From Eubacterium sp. (GTDB taxonomy: Bacteria; Bacillota; Clostridia; Lachnospirales; Lachnospiraceae): DNA of 33,290 bases. Shown here piece after piece: positions 5,545 to 13,901 of the stretch (positions are counted from its first letter, which is position 1; each line of letters starts with the position of its first letter). Under the pieces are notes generated by a model, which saw nothing but the letters and a program-made list of their open reading frames with translations, was not told where the DNA came from and did not search any database. A program made the translations under genes and the position numbers. The stretch covers positions 1 to 33,290 of the forward strand of contig JAFRGW010000166.1 in NCBI GenBank assembly GCA_017433615.1. The letters are read 5' to 3'.

Positions 5545-5574
5545 TTCAGTCTTGTTTCTGAGATGTATAATTGA

Positions 5575-5610
5575 AAGACCGGGGATCGCTATGATCCCCG
5601 GTCTTTTTTT
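5575..5610. terminator. Strong terminator between etfA and the convergent STAND gene
   Basis: A perfect 13-bp stem (AAGACCGGGGATC / GATCCCCGGTCTT) with a 5-base loop (GCTAT) is followed on the plus strand by a run of T to 5610. On the minus strand the same stem is followed by TCTTTCAA, so it may also slow transcription from the STAND gene, whose stop codon lies at 5610-5612. Confidence 0.92.
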
Positions 5611-7787
5611 CATGGCTCCTCCAGCGCAGTGATCCTTCGCTCCACGCGCCGGACTTGCTCTGTCCAGTAGGGATGAGCCGTGTGCAGCATTCGCAATAAC
5701 GTCCTGTATTCGGATGCCGCCTTCTGTTTTTCTCCTTCTGCCGCCCGCAGATCGGCGCGCCTTAAGAGGATTCCCATGGTGTAGGAATGGGTTTCTCCCC
5801 GCTGCGCAACTGCGTAGTCAATCATATTCTGTACCAGCATTTCGGCTTCCGGAAACCGCTTCTCTTTTACGAGAAGTTCCAGCCGGTATTTATCCAGTTC
5901 CGTTCTTGTAAATGTTTCAGTAAAATACCGCGCGGCGCGTTTATCTTTCTTCAGATATTCCAGGACTGTTTCAAGACATTTTTCAGCAGACGCCGGCTCT
6001 CCGGTACGCATGTGGATTTTTCCGAGATCAAGCAGCCAGAAATAATAGGTAAGATATGCTTCCATTTCCGGAAGGTCAGCAATTTTCTCAGCCGTTCTGC
6101 TGCATCGCTTCTTTTCCGCTGCCAGAACCGCCTGTTCTTCGTACTTCAGTGCTTCCTCAATGTATTTCAGCGCCTGCGAATACTCTTTTCTTCCCCGGCA
6201 CACGCGCGATTGTTTGCCTGCAGCCTCTGCCATCAGATGGGACCACCTGGCATCGTATGGGCTGCACCGCTTCAATGTATCATATGCCATCTGATACCAC
6301 GGGACAGAAGATGCATAGTCCTGGCTATTGAAATACGCCGCCGCAACACGAAGCTGCATCTGCGCTGTCAGCTGATGTTCCGGTCCATATTTGCAGGATA
6401 CAATTGTATACAGCTTTTTGTAACCTGCAATCACCTCTTCGGCGTATTCCTGCATCATAAGAAGAATCAGAAGCCGGTCAAAAGATTCTGCCATCCAGGC
6501 TTCCGGCTCAGGAAATGCATGCAGCAGCGCCATCACATAAGGGACCTCTTTCTGATTTTCACGAAAAGACCTAATCCAGGCATCCTTTGTGATCTCTCCA
6601 TATCCTTTGATCAGCGTTCTGCAATTCACAGCATTCGGGCGGAAAACCAATCGTGCTGCTTCGGCAATAACCGGGTGAACTGAAAGCCGCTCCGGCTGCT
6701 GATCTGTATCATATCGAACCTGCAGCAATGATTTATCTGCAAGCCCGCGTACCGTTCTGCCGGAAACATCTGAAACCGCACAATATCTTTCCCAGGAGAT
6801 TCCCTGAACAGGAAGAACCGACATCTCCCGCATGACCTGCTTTTCCGTCTGCTTCAGCGGGATTCGCATCAGCAGATCTTTAAAAATATCCCTGTGGGCT
6901 GCACCGCGGGTGGAAGCTACATCATCCTGCAGATGGAAAGCGGATCCTTCCGCCGCATCCTGTTGCCCCTGCTTTTCTCTGAAACACATGATCATCCGAA
7001 GGGTATGACCGCCCGTACGGATTCTGTACTGCTCTGCCGTCTGTTCTGCTATGCCGTTCCCGTATACTTCGTAAAACTGCTTCCATTCATCCTGTGTCCG
7101 AAAAGCGCCTGTGATAATACATGTTCCGCCGTTCCAGACTTCCGCGTGCAGTCTCGTTGTAATCAGAAGATCGCACGGAAGTCCGAACAGATCTGCCTGC
7201 CGCCCTTTCTCCTGCCGGTTCCAGTCATCGATCACCAGAAGTGTGTTCTCCCGCCTGAAAATCCGGGCAATTTCCTGCAGTTTCCTGCGAACATATCTGC
7301 TGCGGGTTTTGTATCTTGTTCTCTCGTAACGGAATCCTTTTACCGGAAGCAGGTAATCATCTCCTATCAGCTGTTCAAGACTTCCCGGATACGTCAAAGC
7401 AATGACCCTGTCATATTCATTCTGGTGAATCCGGAGATATTCTTCTGCGACAGATGTTTTACCGATTCCTCCGAGACCACACAGAATTACAGGCCCCTTT
7501 CCGCTCCTGAACGCTTCGCTGATTGCTGAAAGTTCGGCAGCCCGCCCGATGAAAGGGTCTCTGCTCCGTTCATAAAACTGTTTCCATTCAGCCGGCACAG
7601 GCTCAGAAAAACCGGGCTGCATTTGTTCTGCAAGGTTCTTTTGTTCTTCCCGCAGTGCACCGGCCGCCTGCTCTGCTTCCTCTTCATCTCTGTACCCGCC
7701 GGGGATCCCCCTGTAAAGAACACGCAGACGATGCATCCGCTCTTTCCAGGCAATCTTCTCCTGGTCCGAAGTGGTTCTGAAATCCAT
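5610..7787 (-). CDS. STAND-type NB-ARC ATPase with C-terminal TPR-like repeats
   Basis: A 725-residue protein with a signal-transduction ATPase layout. Residues 1-75 are charged and helical, with no recognised effector domain. FIGRAAEL (79-86) opens an NB-ARC-like module with Walker A GLGGIGKT (104-111), Walker B LLVIDD (183-188) and sensor motif LLITTR (207-212). A winged-helix-like stretch around 340-375 (LSVHPVIAEAAR) follows, then helical TPR-like repeats from about 425 to 720. Such proteins act as ATP-driven switches in which repeats sense a ligand. I start at ATG 7787 because CAGGAG lies 6 bases upstream; a GTG at 7889 would add 34 residues, partly encoded by a REP-like sequence. It is the last gene of a MATE-HTH-STAND operon. 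Target and trigger are unknown. Confidence 0.82.
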   Translation of the reverse strand: MDFRTTSDQEKIAWKERMHRLRVLYRGIPGGYRDEEEAEQAAGALREEQKNLAEQMQPGFSEPVPAEWKQFYERSRDPFIGRAAELSAISEAFRSGKGPVILCGLGGIGKTSVAEEYLRIHQNEYDRVIALTYPGSLEQLIGDDYLLPVKGFRYERTRYKTRSRYVRRKLQEIARIFRRENTLLVIDDWNRQEKGRQADLFGLPCDLLITTRLHAEVWNGGTCIITGAFRTQDEWKQFYEVYGNGIAEQTAEQYRIRTGGHTLRMIMCFREKQGQQDAAEGSAFHLQDDVASTRGAAHRDIFKDLLMRIPLKQTEKQVMREMSVLPVQGISWERYCAVSDVSGRTVRGLADKSLLQVRYDTDQQPERLSVHPVIAEAARLVFRPNAVNCRTLIKGYGEITKDAWIRSFRENQKEVPYVMALLHAFPEPEAWMAESFDRLLILLMMQEYAEEVIAGYKKLYTIVSCKYGPEHQLTAQMQLRVAAAYFNSQDYASSVPWYQMAYDTLKRCSPYDARWSHLMAEAAGKQSRVCRGRKEYSQALKYIEEALKYEEQAVLAAEKKRCSRTAEKIADLPEMEAYLTYYFWLLDLGKIHMRTGEPASAEKCLETVLEYLKKDKRAARYFTETFTRTELDKYRLELLVKEKRFPEAEMLVQNMIDYAVAQRGETHSYTMGILLRRADLRAAEGEKQKAASEYRTLLRMLHTAHPYWTEQVRRVERRITALEEP

Positions 7788-7847
7788 TGTTTTCTCCTGT
7801 TCAAGTCCCGCCCCCTGCGATCTCACGCGGACAGCCGGGGCGCAGCG

Positions 7848-7873
7848 CAGCAGGGACTCCTCCACTGCGTTGA
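7848..7873. repeat. Short REP-like sequence shared with 21826-21852
   Basis: CAGCAGGGACTCC followed by TCCACTGCGTTGA is almost the same as CAGCAGGAGACTCCC plus TCACTGCGTTGA at 21826-21852, 14 kb away. It lies in the 103-base gap between the HTH gene stop and my chosen STAND start, which argues that this gap is not coding. Here the hairpin arms are decayed. Confidence 0.45.
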
Positions 7874-7890
7874 TTTCCTCCAGCTGCACG

Positions 7891-8871
7891 TTACCTCTTG
7901 CTATCGCCGGACGAGTTCCCCTCTGAATGATGTTCCACGGCGTTTTTCAGGGCTTTGAACTGCAAAAAGCACAGCGCTCCCATCCCGCGGGATTCAAATG
8001 TATGATCCATCGCTCTGCACACCTGTTTCATCCACCGGATGCAAACTCCGGGATCCTTTTCTTCACATGCCTCCCGGTAGCGCTCCAGCAGCCGGATCAC
8101 CAGATAGTCCGTCCGCTCTCCCCGCGTCCCCGTATGATTCTCCTGAAGCGGCAAATATCCCAGCTGTTCCAGCCTTTCCGACAGAAGATCAACAGTCAGA
8201 AATGGCATACCGAACAGGAACAAATGCCGGATCACCGCGGATCTGGGAATTTCTCCAGAAAGATTCATATGCCTGCGGAACTCGGCATCATAATTGACGC
8301 TGATACTGTGCGAGCCCGGCAGTACGGTCCTCTCTCCTGCAGCCGTATAGTCCAGAGCCTCGAGAAAATACAGATGACGAAGATATGGAAGCGGATTGCC
8401 GGCCGGCACATTTGCCAGAAGCATCCGTTCCGGAGCGACTTTGTCGAGAAATTCGCGAGCGTATCCATCCAATGCCTTTTTCCTGCATCTGTATAGAGAT
8501 ACTTCCGTATCTGATTTCATAAATACACGATCACTTTTGTCCGCCCAGCTTTGCATAAGCCAGTTCTGCTCCTCTGCTTCAAGACCCAGTGCCTGTCCGA
8601 ACCGAAGCACCTGCTCCCTGTCAGCCGGAATATGACGGCCCGTCCGCCAGTACCGAATCTTCAGAATTGCGGATCCGGACACTGCATTCTGGTACATCTT
8701 CTCAGCCAGGATTCTGTCAAAATCCGTTTTCCTGAAAACGCCGTATCTGTTTTTTTGCCGCTCATAAAGCTGAATAAGAAGATCCCGTTCCGGACGGGCT
8801 TCCCTGCTGCGTCTGATGCATTCCTCTGCGAGTTCCTGCCCGGTTAATATTTCTGTGTCCATCTTATTCAT
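7891..8871 (-). CDS. HTH-domain protein paired with the STAND ATPase
   Basis: A 326-residue soluble protein of unknown function. Residues about 65-105 (SAILKIRYWRTGRHIPADRE..LRFGQALGL) look like a degenerate Cro/CI-type helix-turn-helix; the rest (about 120-320) is helical and not recognised. I chose ATG 8871 because GGAGGG lies 8 bases upstream; the upstream ATG at 8895 has no good site. This start overlaps the MATE stop codon by 8 bases (ATGAATAA), so translation is probably coupled. HTH proteins next to NB-ARC/TPR proteins suggest a regulator or adaptor for the ATPase. That role is inferred, and DNA binding is only a weak prediction because the HTH motif is imperfect. Confidence 0.75.
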   Translation of the reverse strand: MNKMDTEILTGQELAEECIRRSREARPERDLLIQLYERQKNRYGVFRKTDFDRILAEKMYQNAVSGSAILKIRYWRTGRHIPADREQVLRFGQALGLEAEEQNWLMQSWADKSDRVFMKSDTEVSLYRCRKKALDGYAREFLDKVAPERMLLANVPAGNPLPYLRHLYFLEALDYTAAGERTVLPGSHSISVNYDAEFRRHMNLSGEIPRSAVIRHLFLFGMPFLTVDLLSERLEQLGYLPLQENHTGTRGERTDYLVIRLLERYREACEEKDPGVCIRWMKQVCRAMDHTFESRGMGALCFLQFKALKNAVEHHSEGNSSGDSKR

Positions 8872-10225
8872 CACCGAACCCTCCGCGTCCTGCATTTTTT
8901 CCGATGGTTCTATACCTGAAATGCAGCATGATAAGCGCGGACACCCCGCTGAATCCCCAGGTCACAACCGGATACCACCCCATAGCCGGGAATCCTGCTT
9001 TTGCCACAATTGTATATAAAAGCAAAATGCCTGACAGCGCCTCTATGGTTCCGAGCACGGGCTGGCTCACATTACTTCCGATACTCTGAAGTGTATAGCG
9101 TCCTGTAAGATAAACAGCAAGTCCGGCCAATCCCCACTGCGACAGTGCAAGGTAAGTGCTTCCGCTTTGAATCACCCCTTCTGCAACGGCACCCGCGCCG
9201 GCAGCCGCCGTCACGAGTTTTTCCGCAAGCAGAAAAGATCCTGCACTGCAGAGCAAAGCTGCAAATACGCTGTGCCGCATCAGACGCCGGCACTCGTCCC
9301 TCAGAAGTCTGAAGCAGCCAGCGCCATACCACCTCCCGCACAGGATTGCTGCAGCGGTTCCATAGGAGCCGACGATCACCTGAAACACATTGCTGATTGT
9401 GGAAGCATATGTATAACCGGCGATCTCAGTGATTGAAAAGCTGTTAACCATCCGCTGCCTGAAAATGCCGGCAAAGGCGACCATTGCCATCATAGCACTC
9501 TTGCTGAGACCGCCGTGCATCAGCTCCCTGTACACGTGAAGCGGTACCTGCGCAGGCCGGCACAGAGCCAGATGTCTCCCCGCGGTAACAGTCAGATAAA
9601 TACTCAGCACCAGGCAAATCAGAACATGATTCAGAAGAACGGCTGCAGCAGCACTCCAGACCGGAAGACGGAGTACACCCGTCAGAAGAACCGTCAGCGC
9701 CGTCTGTGTCACAACGCCGGCCGCTGTTACCGCGCCTGATATGCCTGTTTTGTTCATTCCCTGTACAGTCCAGATCAGAAAATTGCGCAGCGCGGAGAAT
9801 CCGGAACCGGCGATTACCCATGCCGCATATCCCGCAGCCTCTGCCCGCAGTTCCGCCGGGACGTTCAGCATATGAAGAACCGGTCCGGCTGCCGGCACGG
9901 CAAGACACGCCGCAATCGCAAGGAGACCCGTCAGATAAATCCCTCCCCAGAAGGAACTCATGCCGCCTTCTGTCTGCAGTTCTTCAAAGAATCTGCACTG
10001 AACAATCCCAAAGCCCGTTGTCATGCCATTAAATATAAAATGCTGCAGCGTCCCGAGAAATGCACAGCTGCCGATTACCGCTACCGCCTCTTCCGTTCTG
10101 ACCCGTCCGAGAATTCCGGCATTAATCAGGGCATAACACTGCTGAAATACAGCGGATGCCATAATCGGCATCAGGAATGCCGCAAACCTTCTTTCCGGCA
10201 TCATTTTCTGATTTACATGATCCAT
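8864..10225 (-). CDS. MATE-family multidrug/cation antiporter
   Basis: A 453-residue inner-membrane protein with about 12 hydrophobic segments, the expected size for a MATE exporter, which couples efflux of drugs or metabolites to Na+ or H+ entry. The sequence begins with RFAAFLMPIMASAVFQQCYALINAGILGR, the usual first-helix pattern with a polar loop, and has two similar halves. I start at ATG 10225 because GGAGG is 12 bases upstream (GGAGGGACG, spacing 9 from its end). It is the first gene of the operon that continues into the HTH and STAND genes. Its promoter region contains a 38-bp dyad shared with the divergent Ig-like protein gene. The substrate is not visible from sequence. Confidence 0.88.
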   Translation of the reverse strand: MDHVNQKMMPERRFAAFLMPIMASAVFQQCYALINAGILGRVRTEEAVAVIGSCAFLGTLQHFIFNGMTTGFGIVQCRFFEELQTEGGMSSFWGGIYLTGLLAIAACLAVPAAGPVLHMLNVPAELRAEAAGYAAWVIAGSGFSALRNFLIWTVQGMNKTGISGAVTAAGVVTQTALTVLLTGVLRLPVWSAAAAVLLNHVLICLVLSIYLTVTAGRHLALCRPAQVPLHVYRELMHGGLSKSAMMAMVAFAGIFRQRMVNSFSITEIAGYTYASTISNVFQVIVGSYGTAAAILCGRWYGAGCFRLLRDECRRLMRHSVFAALLCSAGSFLLAEKLVTAAAGAGAVAEGVIQSGSTYLALSQWGLAGLAVYLTGRYTLQSIGSNVSQPVLGTIEALSGILLLYTIVAKAGFPAMGWYPVVTWGFSGVSALIMLHFRYRTIGKNAGRGGFGDE

Positions 10226-10253
10226 AAATAACGTCCCTCCACCGGTATTGTTC

Positions 10254-10282
10254 AGAATAACAGATCTGAAAAAAACGGGCAA
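10254..10282 (-). promoter_or_regulatory. Promoter of the MATE-HTH-STAND operon
   Basis: On the minus strand, TTGCCC (10277-10282) and TATTCT (10254-10259) are 17 bp apart. Each matches the vegetative consensus at 4 of 6 positions. The TTG of the -35 box is the end of the left arm of the adjacent 38-bp dyad. Confidence 0.5.
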
Positions 10283-10317
10283 CGATGTGATTTTTAACGT
10301 TAACTTTCACATCGTTG
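10280..10317. promoter_or_regulatory. 38-bp two-level dyad (candidate operator) in a divergent promoter
   Basis: Perfect 11-bp arms, CAACGATGTGA (10280-10290) and TCACATCGTTG (10307-10317), flank a perfect 10-bp palindrome TTAACGTTAA (10294-10303), with 3 bases on each side. Both palindromes share one symmetry axis between 10298 and 10299. The outer CGTTG of each arm supplies the TTG of the -35 box of each divergent promoter. A dimeric or tetrameric regulator bound here could control both directions. Confidence 0.8.
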
Positions 10318-10343
10318 ACGCCTTTCGGTTTCCATGCTAAAAA
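10315..10343 (+). promoter_or_regulatory. Promoter of the Ig-like secreted protein gene
   Basis: TTGACG (10315-10320) and TAAAAA (10338-10343) are separated by 17 bp. The -35 box overlaps the right arm of the 38-bp dyad, mirroring the divergent MATE promoter. Confidence 0.5.
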
Positions 10344-10394
10344 CGTCAAAAAGATCAGACATGTCTTTTACTTCATCGAACAGGGAGGATCTGT

Positions 10395-11900
10395 ATGCAT
10401 AAACAATTCAAACACACACATCTCCTGCGGGGTATTCTGCTCACAGCACTGGTATGCCTGTCTCTCATACTTCCGGGTCAGGCCGCGTATGGCGCTTCCG
10501 GAAAAGTAACCGGTGTCAAGGTAACCAGTCTTCCGGCGAAGACACTGACACTGAAAAAAGGGAAATCATTTAAGCTGAAAACAAAAGTGACCGGCACCGG
10601 CAGTTTTTCCAAAGCTGTGACTTATAAAAGCAGCAATCCGAAAGTTGTTGCTGTCAGCAAAAAGGGCAAACTCACTGCCAAAAAGAATGGCAAAGCAAAG
10701 ATTACAATCACATCAAAAAAGAACAGGAAAAAGAAATATGTCATAAAAGTCACCGTCGGAAAGCCGGTAAAAAAACTGACGCTGAATCAGACAAGCGCTT
10801 CTCTGACAACCGGAAAATCCCTGACGCTGAAAACAACGGTTCTTCCCAAAAAAGCCAGTAACAAAAAAGTTCTCTGGTCCTCCGGAAACACCGCTGTTGC
10901 GACAGTCAGCACCAGCGGTCTGGTTACAGCAAAGAAAACCGGAACAACAACCATCACCGCATTAGCCGCAGACGGATCCGGTAAAAAGGCTTCATGTAAA
11001 GTAACTGTCACAAAACGCACACAGCTCAATATCGGCGGTGAAGTGGATCTGGCTGCTCTTTTTCAAAATGCGTCCTCCCTGCCGCTGAATCAGACACTTT
11101 CCGGATCGGGGAATAACAATTCAGAGGCAGTTTCCTACTATCTGAAAGCTCCCGGGACAGGAAGATATGAATTCATCGCCGTTGACAAGAATGGCAGCTC
11201 ATTATACCCTGACATCTATGATCAAAATCAGAAGGAACTGGACTGGTACGACTGCAACTACAGCACCGGCCGATACGTCGCCGAGCTGACCGCGGGTAAA
11301 ACCTATTTCATCTGGTTCTTCGCCAGTCAGCCTTACTCAATCCGCGTAAGAATGCTGCATCAGGTAAATATTACTTTCAATGCGACAGACGGATATTTTC
11401 CTGAATACAATGAACAATTAGAAGATGTGATAAAACAAGACGCAGTAACAATCCCCTACATGCAGGGAGACTATCTTTATCAATATGCAGAACGGCCATC
11501 ATACGGTAATGATACCAGGGTGTTTGCCGGATGGGCTGACCATCCCGGTGCCTCTGCCTCGGAATGTCTGCCTGTCAGAACCATGACTGCGGAAAATGAT
11601 CAGACACTCTATGCGGTCTGGGCGGAACCGGTTGTGGTCAGGTTCGCCGCAAATAACGGAGTGTTCTTCTATAACGAAAAAACAGGAAGCTATCAGGCAA
11701 TTGTAAGCATCACCTATCCCAGAGGACTGAAACTGTCTGCAGATTATCCGCTGCAATACATCTATTTCCAGAATCCGACACGCAGCGGCTATCAGTTCGC
11801 CGGCTGGGCTGCAACGAGTGATGCAGGAACCAATGACATTATCAATCTTGACCAGACTTTCGCAGATCAAAATATTGAATATTATGCCGTCTGGAAATAA
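10395..11900 (+). CDS. Secreted protein with two BIG2 Ig-like domains and InlB-type B repeats
   Basis: A 501-residue exported protein. Residues 1-34 are a signal peptide (basic start, hydrophobic ILLTALVCLSLILPG, likely cut near AYGA). Two bacterial Ig-like group 2 domains follow (about 37-120 and 123-206), marked by VTYKSSNPKVVAVSKKGKLTAKKNGKAKIT and its second version. Residues about 215-325 form a beta-rich domain resembling pre-peptidase-type modules. Two Listeria-Bacteroides (InlB B) repeats end the protein (about 330-415 and 416-501), each with F.GWA and YAVW. The N-terminal half is very lysine-rich. There is no LPXTG anchor or SLH domain, so attachment, if any, is non-covalent. The start has GGGAGGA 5 bases upstream. 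It is divergent from the MATE operon and shares its operator region. Function is likely adhesion or envelope binding, by inference. Confidence 0.85.
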   Translation: MHKQFKHTHLLRGILLTALVCLSLILPGQAAYGASGKVTGVKVTSLPAKTLTLKKGKSFKLKTKVTGTGSFSKAVTYKSSNPKVVAVSKKGKLTAKKNGKAKITITSKKNRKKKYVIKVTVGKPVKKLTLNQTSASLTTGKSLTLKTTVLPKKASNKKVLWSSGNTAVATVSTSGLVTAKKTGTTTITALAADGSGKKASCKVTVTKRTQLNIGGEVDLAALFQNASSLPLNQTLSGSGNNNSEAVSYYLKAPGTGRYEFIAVDKNGSSLYPDIYDQNQKELDWYDCNYSTGRYVAELTAGKTYFIWFFASQPYSIRVRMLHQVNITFNATDGYFPEYNEQLEDVIKQDAVTIPYMQGDYLYQYAERPSYGNDTRVFAGWADHPGASASECLPVRTMTAENDQTLYAVWAEPVVVRFAANNGVFFYNEKTGSYQAIVSITYPRGLKLSADYPLQYIYFQNPTRSGYQFAGWAATSDAGTNDIINLDQTFADQNIEYYAVWK

Positions 11901-11924
11901 ACAAGACGGATCTGCACTTCACGA

Positions 11925-12084
11925 GGAGACAGGGGACGGTTCTCTGTCTCCTTTTTGCAACTCCTTCCTCGGCTCGTTCTAAAAAGAATGCACTTTCCAT
12001 CGCAGCGAATTTCATCTGAGCTGCGCGGAAAGTGCATTCTTTGTTCTGAAATTGAAAGGAGACAGAGAACCGTCCCGTGTCTCC
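11925..12084. repeat. Nested palindromic (MITE/REP-like) element with GGAGACA ends
   Basis: A 160-bp element. The ends are 27-bp imperfect palindromes, GGAGACAGGGGACGG.. (11925-11951) and its reverse complement copy (12058-12084), identical at 26 of 27 positions. Inside is a second inverted repeat of 16 perfect bases, AAAGAATGCACTTTCC (11983-11998) and GGAAAGTGCATTCTTT (12027-12042), and inside that CGCAGC/GCTGCG (12001-12006, 12020-12025). The whole can fold into a long cruciform or hairpin. It begins 24 bases after the Ig-like protein stop and covers the 3' end of the flavodiiron gene. It has no transposase. Confidence 0.82.
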
Positions 12085-13901
12085 TTTCGACAAACCCTGA
12101 TATACTTGATCGGCTCAACATCAGATGCGGGATGTTTGCACAGCGGGCAGATGAAATCATCTGGAAGCGGATCACCCTCATAGATGTAACCGCAGACGGT
12201 GCAGACCCATCCCTTCTTGCCTTCGGTATTTGGTTTCGGCTTGACGTTCTTCTGATAGTAGGTGTAGGACATGGTCTCTTTGTCAGACATGACGCGCGCC
12301 TCTGTCACCTTGCAGATGAACATGCCGTGCGTTCCGAGATCAACGTACTGCTCTACTTCCAGTGCCATCATTGCGTTGATGAACTGCGGCAGAATGATCA
12401 GGCCGTTGTCGGCGCGTTTCAGATCTTCCATGCCTGCAAATTTGTCAACGGTGCGGCCGGTCTGGAAACCGAAGCGCTCAAAGACAGAGAACGGTGCCTC
12501 AACTGACAGCACATTGACGTTCATCTTCTTGGTCTGCTGGATAACATGGTGTGAGTAGTTTGCCTTGTTAATGTTGACAGCTACTCTGGTCGGATCGCTG
12601 GTCAGCTGTGTGACGGTGTTGCAGATCATGCCGTTGTCCTTCTTGCCGTCATTGCTGGTGATGACATACAGGCCGTATCCGATGTGGAACAGCGCCTTCA
12701 TATCATTCTTGTCAGCCTTGTCCGGGGACTGTGCAATGTAGTCGCGGCAGAGCTCGTCAGCCATCTTCTCGAGTGCAGCACTGCTGTCTGCATCGAGTGC
12801 GGACTTAATGGTAACTTCTGTCTCCAGATAGGTAAGGTCCTTGCAGCCCTCGAGAATCTTCTTCATGGTCTTCTTCGCCATCGGCGCCCATGTTCCGTTC
12901 TCAATGAATCCGACGGTGCGTTTCTGGAAATTGCGCTCAGCCAGTTCTTCCAGGAATGTGCGCATCCACGGGAATACTTCTGCGTTATAGGTTGTGGAAG
13001 CGAAGACAATCTTGTCATAGCGGAATGCGTCCTCGACGGTCTCTGGCATGTCATCGCGTGCAAGGTCAGCAACGACAACCTTCGGCGCTCCTTTTTCTTT
13101 CAGCATCTTCGCCAGCTTTTCAACGGCTTCTTTGGTGTGGCCATATACGGATGTGTAGGCAATCAGAATACCTTCAGACTCCGGTGTATAGGATGACCAC
13201 TTATCATAGAGATCCAGGTAGTATCCGAGATTCTCAGTCAGAACCGGTCCGTGTGTCGGGCAGATGATCTGGATATCAAGACCTGCTGCCGCCTTCAGCA
13301 GATTCTGTGTCTGTGCGCCATATTTTCCGACGATACCGAAGTAGTATCTGCGCGCCTCGCATGCCCATCCTTCCGGATCTTCGACATCATTTGCGCCGAA
13401 TTTTCCAAAGCCGTCTGCAGAGAACAGAACCTTGTCCGTGCTGTCATAAGTAACCATGACTTCCGGCCAGTGTACCATCGGAGCAAATACGAAGGTCAGC
13501 TCGTGTTTTCCGAGAGAAATGCTCTCGCCGTTCTTAACGGTTACGCGGCTCTGCACTGCATCTGCGCCGAAGAACTGATCCATCATCTTGAATGCTTTTG
13601 CATTGGAAATAACCTGCGCATCCGGATAGATCTTCAGGAAATTAGCGATATTTGCGGAGTGGTCCGGCTCCATGTGCTGGATGATCAGATAATCCGGCTT
13701 TCTGTCGCCGATTGCATTGGCGATATTATCCAGCCACTCATGTGTAAAGTTTCTGTCTACGGTATCCATGACCGCGATCTTCTCATCGAGGATGACATAG
13801 GAATTGTAAGCCATTCCCAGCGGTACGACATACTGTCCCTCAAACAGATCAATCTGATGATCATTGACGCCTACATACTTGATATCGTTTGTGATTGTCA
13901 T
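12012..13901 (-). CDS. Flavodiiron protein fused to flavin reductase and rubredoxin domains
   Basis: A cytoplasmic O2 (and/or NO) reductase that protects anaerobes, 629 residues. The beta-lactamase-like domain (1-240) has the diiron ligands H76-x-E78-x-D80-H81, H144, D163 and H217. A flavodoxin domain (about 245-385, AYTSVYGHTKEAV) binds FMN. Residues about 405-560 resemble FMN-binding flavin reductases, and 565-598 form a rubredoxin with two CxxC pairs (WVCTVCGYIYEG, ICPLCKHPASD), so the electron chain is built into one polypeptide. The start has AAGGAGA 5 bases upstream. The odd part is the end: about 22-24 residues after the rubredoxin (from KETRDGSLSP on) are encoded by the palindromic element 11925-12084, which seems to have replaced the original stop codon. 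Confidence 0.93.
   Translation of the reverse strand: MTITNDIKYVGVNDHQIDLFEGQYVVPLGMAYNSYVILDEKIAVMDTVDRNFTHEWLDNIANAIGDRKPDYLIIQHMEPDHSANIANFLKIYPDAQVISNAKAFKMMDQFFGADAVQSRVTVKNGESISLGKHELTFVFAPMVHWPEVMVTYDSTDKVLFSADGFGKFGANDVEDPEGWACEARRYYFGIVGKYGAQTQNLLKAAAGLDIQIICPTHGPVLTENLGYYLDLYDKWSSYTPESEGILIAYTSVYGHTKEAVEKLAKMLKEKGAPKVVVADLARDDMPETVEDAFRYDKIVFASTTYNAEVFPWMRTFLEELAERNFQKRTVGFIENGTWAPMAKKTMKKILEGCKDLTYLETEVTIKSALDADSSAALEKMADELCRDYIAQSPDKADKNDMKALFHIGYGLYVITSNDGKKDNGMICNTVTQLTSDPTRVAVNINKANYSHHVIQQTKKMNVNVLSVEAPFSVFERFGFQTGRTVDKFAGMEDLKRADNGLIILPQFINAMMALEVEQYVDLGTHGMFICKVTEARVMSDKETMSYTYYQKNVKPKPNTEGKKGWVCTVCGYIYEGDPLPDDFICPLCKHPASDVEPIKYIRVCRKETRDGSLSPFNFRTKNALSAQLR

Follow-up and report, generated by a model that had tools for sequence, protein, structure and literature searches.

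A recurrent gene unit of an HTH-like protein, a STAND ATPase and a dedicated MATE-fold protein in Lachnospiraceae, possibly forming a regulatory switch

Introduction

MATE proteins are usually taken to be drug pumps. Here we describe a gene unit from Eubacterium sp. (Lachnospiraceae; GenBank assembly GCA_017433615.1) in which a MATE-fold membrane protein is encoded together with a STAND-type signal-transduction ATPase and a protein that probably has a helix-turn-helix (HTH) fold. The window, that is, the whole stretch of DNA that was analysed, comprises positions 1 to 33,290 of contig JAFRGW010000166.1. A clade that keeps the transporter fold under selection without its coupling site, and that is tied to a STAND protein, would make it possible to test directly whether the fold of a multidrug transporter can act as a signalling subunit. 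The unit also links a protein family that has no name to STANDs, kinases and sigma factors of gut bacteria, between which it stands. No description of an HTH-STAND-MATE unit was found in the titles or abstract openings of the literature searched, a scope that excludes subscription papers and leaves absence unproven. The terms sought were likewise missing from PMC7159879, although one of them was a truncated word, which a search for whole words would miss.

Organization of the operon

The three genes lie on the minus strand (Table 1), where a preliminary description of the window had placed them and with the 8-base overlap between the HTH ATG and the MATE stop that it had noted. Its statement that they run without a gap holds only if the STAND frame is translated from GTG 7889, the codon that opens it. 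The closest relative, L024 (a roe-deer gut metagenome-assembled genome of Eubacterium sp.), lacks the first 34 residues of this frame in the alignment and shares with the window a ribosome-binding site before ATG 7787, so that ATG 7787 appears to be the best start, with a gap of 103 bp between HTH and STAND.

Table 1. Coordinates of the operon and associated features in the window
Feature	Positions	Strand	Remarks
MATE-fold membrane protein gene	8864..10225	minus	453 aa; Pfam MatE, clade tree, alignment to PfMATE
HTH-like protein gene	7891..8871	minus	326 aa; family unnamed in Pfam/NCBIfam
STAND ATPase gene	5610..7787	minus	725 aa from ATG 7787; N-terminal ~70 aa, NB-ARC-like NTPase, TPR region
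GTG extension, in frame with STAND	7788..7889	minus	Probably untranslated; L024 without extension
Imperfect inverted repeat, MATE leader	10280..10317		19-nt arms, 84% complementary
Terminator-like hairpin and T run	5577..5611		Directly past STAND stop, before etfA 3' end; by eye
Block common to window and L024, absent from same-genus G081	5545..12102
Big_2/List_Bact_rpt protein gene	10395..11900	plus	Secreted by N-terminus; divergent from operon, within block

Recurrence of the three-gene unit

To 397 genomes of the same family we put the HTH protein as a query, which matched in 10 of them, the window's own included; with a profile built from 11 HTH proteins, long matches were confined to these 10 genomes, and there were short matches only in three further genomes and as a second match in G204. 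Among 196 genomes sampled across the order, the only match lay in the window's own genome. We read the neighbourhoods of all 11 HTH loci, namely the ten from the family genomes and L024, the sole locus from a single-protein scan of contigs; the HTH frame of L015 had been missed by open reading frame calling and was read by hand. A STAND of this type lies in one operon with the HTH gene in seven of the 11 loci (the window, L024, L013, L014, L015, L016 and L021), and five of these seven also carry a MATE gene (the window, L024, L015, L016 and L021). L014 has none, and L013 cannot be judged as its contig ends 110 bases past a short STAND (570 aa). The order of the genes varies, being MATE-HTH-STAND in the window and L024, HTH-MATE-STAND in L016, HTH-STAND-MATE in L021 and HTH-STAND-MATE-STAND in L015, and at these loci the frames overlap or are separated by short gaps. 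In L015 (4990-10425) the MATE gene is flanked by two STAND copies, and in the first of these part of the TPR region is missing.

The check proposed with the preliminary description, whether homologues of the HTH protein travel with MATE and STAND genes, thus came out largely positive: because a MATE is present in five of the six judgeable HTH-STAND loci, and in several gene orders, the unit is not accidental. The alternative, in which the unit consists of HTH and STAND with the MATE as a mere passenger, could draw on L014 and on the four of 11 loci where the HTH family occurs with neither partner. The six HTH-STAND genomes among the 397 contain 34-69 MatE half-domain matches each, which corresponds to some 17-35 MATE genes. 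If 30 of 2800 genes are assumed to encode MATEs, and four neighbour slots are counted, a MATE would fall beside a given locus by chance in about 4% of cases, and at four of five independent loci (the window and the near-identical L024 merged) with a probability of about 1.6e-5. Since these MATEs also belong to one clade and sit at different positions, an accidental neighbour is very improbable.

Between the window and L024, the one pair compared, dN/dS (the ratio of nonsynonymous to synonymous divergence) was 0.162 for STAND, 0.186 for HTH and 0.143 for MATE, at dS values of 0.57-0.60; the operon genes are maintained in this pair and not decayed. The genes for the HTH-like protein, the STAND and the dedicated MATE-fold protein form a unit that recurs and is under selection.

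A MATE clade without the N-lobe ion site

The MATE protein of the window passes the Pfam cut-off for MatE (PF01554, 58 bits against 24.9) and stays far below that of NCBIfam TIGR00797 (matE, 54.5 against 147.4). A profile built from the operon members themselves (A2) aligns to PfMATE over positions 7-443 of 452; together with the Pfam score this places the protein in the MATE family, and like the prokaryotic antiporters PfMATE, VcmN and ClbM it has the MATE fold over nearly its full length. A search of the PDB with the single MATE protein gave no match.

We compared the five operon MATEs with 50 others, of which 24 came from the six HTH-STAND genomes (30 loci returned, 25 usable frames, one duplicate dropped) and 26 were further loci from the A2 search (those with loci among the 30 non-operon matches listed). 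In a tree of all 55 rows the five form one side of a branch with an SH-aLRT support of 100, and with three long-branch rows left out (52 rows) the clade received 100/100 (bootstrap/SH-aLRT). It was kept when the window and L024, L021, or L015 and L016 were removed, and leave-out profiles ranked the left-out members above the 50 others, if narrowly so for L024 (240.9 against 240.6 bits). With at most four candidates per genome scored across the set of 397, each of the four operon copies reached 683 bits or more and the next best match 250, so that within this scope the clade was found in four genomes and as operon copies only.

The N-lobe cation site of VcmN consists of Asp35, Asn174, Asp178 and Thr196 (PMC7949106). 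These residues are nearly universal in the 50 other MATEs (Asp35 in 50, Asn174 in 49, Asp178 in 44, with Asn in five and Ala in one, and Thr196 in 50). Counted on the printed A2 alignment, positions 35, 174, 178 and 196 of the window MATE align to Asp41, Asn180, Asp184 and Thr202 of PfMATE, which we take to be its ion site; the PfMATE sequence was that of 3vvn, identical to 3vvp, which is named PfMATE in PMC8113278. In the operon MATEs Asp35, Asp178 and Thr196 are replaced in all five and Asn174 in four, with N, N, S, G and N at position 35, Q, Q, Q, Q and N at 174, T, T, S, S and L at 178, and V, V, V, V and A at 196; the window protein has Asn, Gln, Thr and Val. An earlier residue table omitted the three long-branch rows, and adding them left the result essentially unchanged. 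Two arginines common in the other MATEs, Arg307 (49 of 50) and Arg155 (45 of 50), have likewise given way to other residues in 5/5 operon members, and Lys242 occurs in every one of them and in none of the 50. Judging from these aligned residues, the operon clade has lost the N-lobe Na+/H+ site by which ion-coupled prokaryotic MATE antiporters are recognised, and differs from PfMATE, VcmN and ClbM further in being a separate clade bound to an operon. The preliminary description had called the protein a MATE exporter; the family assignment stands, whereas the plain exporter reading is weakened because the site is lost.

The STAND ATPase

In the STAND protein of the window, TPR_12 and TPR_2 pass the Pfam cut-offs, which NB-ARC (17.2 against 23.5) and AAA_16 (27.7 against 32.6) fail to reach. 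Nor was the gene returned when the window's whole genome was searched for NB-ARC at E 0.001. Other NB-ARC matches in that genome, on C86 and C57, were dropped, as its only HTH-family gene is the window's own. The residues that we take to be Walker A, the Walker B Asp, TTR and HP are invariant in all eight aligned STANDs, and these, with the TPR scores, support membership among the NB-ARC-type STAND ATPases despite the low NB-ARC score. The protein had been said to have no recognisable effector domain, which is true for Pfam; by eye, a stretch of about 70 residues before the ATPase is conserved in the alignment of seven of the eight homologues. No match was found in the PDB with the single STAND protein. 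Its only NCBIfam match was NF040586 (FxSxx-COOH system TPR protein), and as the score is far below the cut-off (62 against 300 bits) it is not a member. AfsR/SARP-type regulators of Streptomyces also have NB-ARC and TPR regions, there linked to transcription; they carry a fused DNA-binding domain and are not known to have a MATE partner.

With at most the best two candidates per genome scored, a profile of the eight STANDs matched strongly and over the full length (E 5e-213 or better) in six of the 397 genomes, and all these relatives lie beside an HTH gene. At a cut-off of 1e-20 some match was present in 38 genomes, the best beyond the operon type being 3e-95. The best-scoring STANDs outside the operon are TIR-NB-ARC-TPR proteins by Pfam (L069:7292-9661, L070:8457-12044, L071:6823-9294 and L072:1519-3996), which have a TIR domain where the operon STAND has its short conserved N-terminal stretch. 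Among the frames fetched around these four, none matched the HTH family or the operon-type MATE. Next by score are kinase-STAND fusions (by Pfam for one, by eye for the others).

The HTH-like protein

Those HTH-like proteins that were scanned have no sequence match in Pfam, NCBIfam or the PDB, so that their earlier labelling as HTH has to rest on other grounds. Arg73, Trp75, Arg76, Pro82 and Arg85 are invariant in 11/11 members, and the AlphaFold model is all-helical with a mean pLDDT of 78.5. Set against profiles of unnamed proteins encoded beside kinases, the HTH profile A3 matched A6 over 42 columns (E 7e-8, probability 95%); the A3-A7 comparison gave E 2e-5 (76%), A3-A5 E 5e-4 (only 32%) and A5-A6 E 2.6e-19 over 329 columns, while comparison of A3 with A2, A1 and A8 yielded E 0.66, 0.09 and 0.25. 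A7 in turn weakly matches three ordinary XRE domains (E 7.6e-4, probability 25%). Through this transitive match by way of A7, and from the residue pattern, an HTH fold is likely for the 326-aa family. The notion that the HTH is fused within STANDs of 780 aa was rejected for lack of a profile match (E 0.25).

The proteins of 365-469 aa that resemble the HTH family by profile lie beside kinases or kinase-STAND fusions in L083, L084, L085, L086, L073, L074, L076 and L081. None reached a cut-off among the six scanned in Pfam and the five scanned in NCBIfam. The kinase domains are Pfam-confirmed beside or in L073 and L083 and were recognised by eye in the remaining loci.

In three of the four HTH loci without STAND (L018, L019 and L020) a sigma-70-type gene adjoins the HTH gene, confirmed by Pfam in L018 and L019 and assigned by BLAST clustering only for the 213-aa gene of L020. 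Long proteins of the sigma-70 type by Pfam (666-695 aa), which extend at the C-terminus by some 500 residues, are encoded at L018:1237-3264, L019:10464-12551 and L020:640-2640; this long gene adjoins the HTH gene in L018 and L019 and lies 6.7 kb off in L020. In L017 a MATE-like gene lies about 6 kb from the HTH gene.

A possible regulatory switch

Taking these observations together, we lean tentatively towards a regulatory switch made up of STAND and HTH, in which a dedicated MATE-fold subunit, probably no longer coupled to ions, would act as sensor or gate. The STAND ATPase would be the nucleotide switch, with its TPR region as sensor. As sigma-factor genes adjoin three of the four STAND-less HTH loci, the HTH-like protein may be the output on transcription, acting on its own operon and perhaps on the neighbouring surface-protein gene. 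The MATE-fold protein would no longer be a Na+-coupled antiporter; it might report a ligand or the state of the membrane to the STAND or, alternatively, pass the ligand through without Na+ coupling. Such logic would resemble that of the STAND protein MalT, which the resting maltose transporter MalFGK2 inhibits by direct contact (PMC6468293), here with a STAND, an HTH-like protein encoded on its own and a MATE fold as the components. MalT shares the ATPase and the TPR-type sensor, but it has its own DNA-binding domain where the operon has a separate unnamed protein, and its membrane partner is an ABC transporter and not a MATE fold, the STAND-MATE contact being putative. A transporter fold serving as a sensor is also known from an Amt-histidine kinase (PMC5764959). 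More speculatively, what was once a pump might now serve a STAND switch as its membrane receptor, and HTH-like adaptors of a new family might carry the output. Distant relatives of these adaptors would work elsewhere with kinases, kinase-STAND fusions and sigma factors, giving a modular bacterial signalling system of interchangeable inputs around one adaptor superfamily; we regard this wider picture as possible and rather doubtful.

Several points weigh against the switch. Absence of the MATE from L014 would be odd for an obligate sensor, and loci L017-L020 count against an obligate unit. The MATE tree contains long branches, about whose joining the program warns; the eight operon STANDs group at 91/93, under the program's mark, and the STAND of L021, which shows the weakest kinship, is outscored by a TIR-STAND if the profile is built without it. 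In the HTH-like model the pLDDT drops to 54-56 over residues 61-80, where the recognition helix is supposed to lie; Foldseek returned nothing at E 0.001 or better for this model, the first five rows being PrgX at E 0.47-0.67, and the HTH half (A9) did not match the three XRE domains directly (E 0.13). Glu395 and Arg376, each present in 32 of the 50 other MATEs, are kept in the operon members and might provide another coupling. Furthermore, loss of the N-lobe site is no proof that transport is lost, since NorM-VC D36N still exports ethidium and NorM-PS makes no use of the N-lobe pocket (PMC8113278).

These last residues and precedents speak for the main rival, in which a compound is sensed by STAND and HTH, and these turn on a MATE that still exports it, be it through coupling by the C-lobe pair or with a changed, perhaps anionic, substrate met by the invariant Lys242. 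The operon layout and the low dN/dS (0.14-0.19) of all three genes would suit such ligand-sensing export, and an accessory target could be dispensed with, as in L014. It fits less well that the N-lobe residues are replaced, and differently in different members, and that the clade was seen only within the operon when a plain target could be any MATE; on balance we consider export with altered coupling conceivable, if on the unlikely side.

Flanking DNA and selection

In G081, a genome of the same genus, the site is empty: the block that L024 holds complete is replaced by about 110 bases, and the adjoining flanks are 96% identical in DNA on the etf side and 89% on the FprA side. G382, the other genome of the genus, has no close etfA neighbour region for comparison. 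The Big_2/List_Bact_rpt gene accompanies the operon both in the window and in L024, and G081 lacks the two together; it lies in the same block and is at most a putative member of the module.

Patchy presence and the empty site would also suit a third reading, namely a defence or conflict module, already considered in the preliminary description, in which the STAND detects an invader and the MATE-fold or HTH-like protein is the effector or a part of the response. The TIR domains of the four best-scoring STANDs outside the operon point the same way, as do known conflict systems in which TRADD-N proteins, some with an ECF-like HTH, are paired with an adjoining STAND-TPR gene (PMC8195603). Those systems resemble the operon in setting a transcription-type protein beside a STAND of the AP-ATPase clade with TPRs, and differ from it in that the main text of PMC8195603, by word search, does not mention MATE. 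Direct evidence of phage defence did not emerge, however: PADLOC matched none of the three proteins at E 1, the HTH query, the only one used, had no relative in the viral scan or in plasmids, the proteins have no known effector domain, and the neighbours of the window's operon are etf and fprA, with no defence genes seen beside it. We therefore consider a defence role improbable.

DNA identity between the window and L024 is 83-84% for the three operon genes and 98% for the etf block. Direct neighbours have lower dS values than the operon (Big_2 0.20, FprA 0.31, etf and acyl-CoA dehydrogenase 0.05-0.07), whereas three genes further along are similar to it (0.44, 0.57 and 0.63). The operon may have been replaced by recombination; a fast-evolving, arms-race operon is unsupported, as its dS is like that of the genes further along and its dN/dS is low.

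The inverted repeat in the MATE leader may be an operator or attenuator. No repeat was found in L024, which differs from the window in the T run and in a single base of one arm, nor in three of the four other upstream regions, and L014 has a different repeat. A short element resembling REP/MITE sequences (11924-12085), with near-perfect 31-nt inverted arms (97%), lies in the window where the gene for the FprA-type flavoprotein has its 3' end, and the flavoprotein frame there encodes 629 aa as against 599 in L024 and G081.

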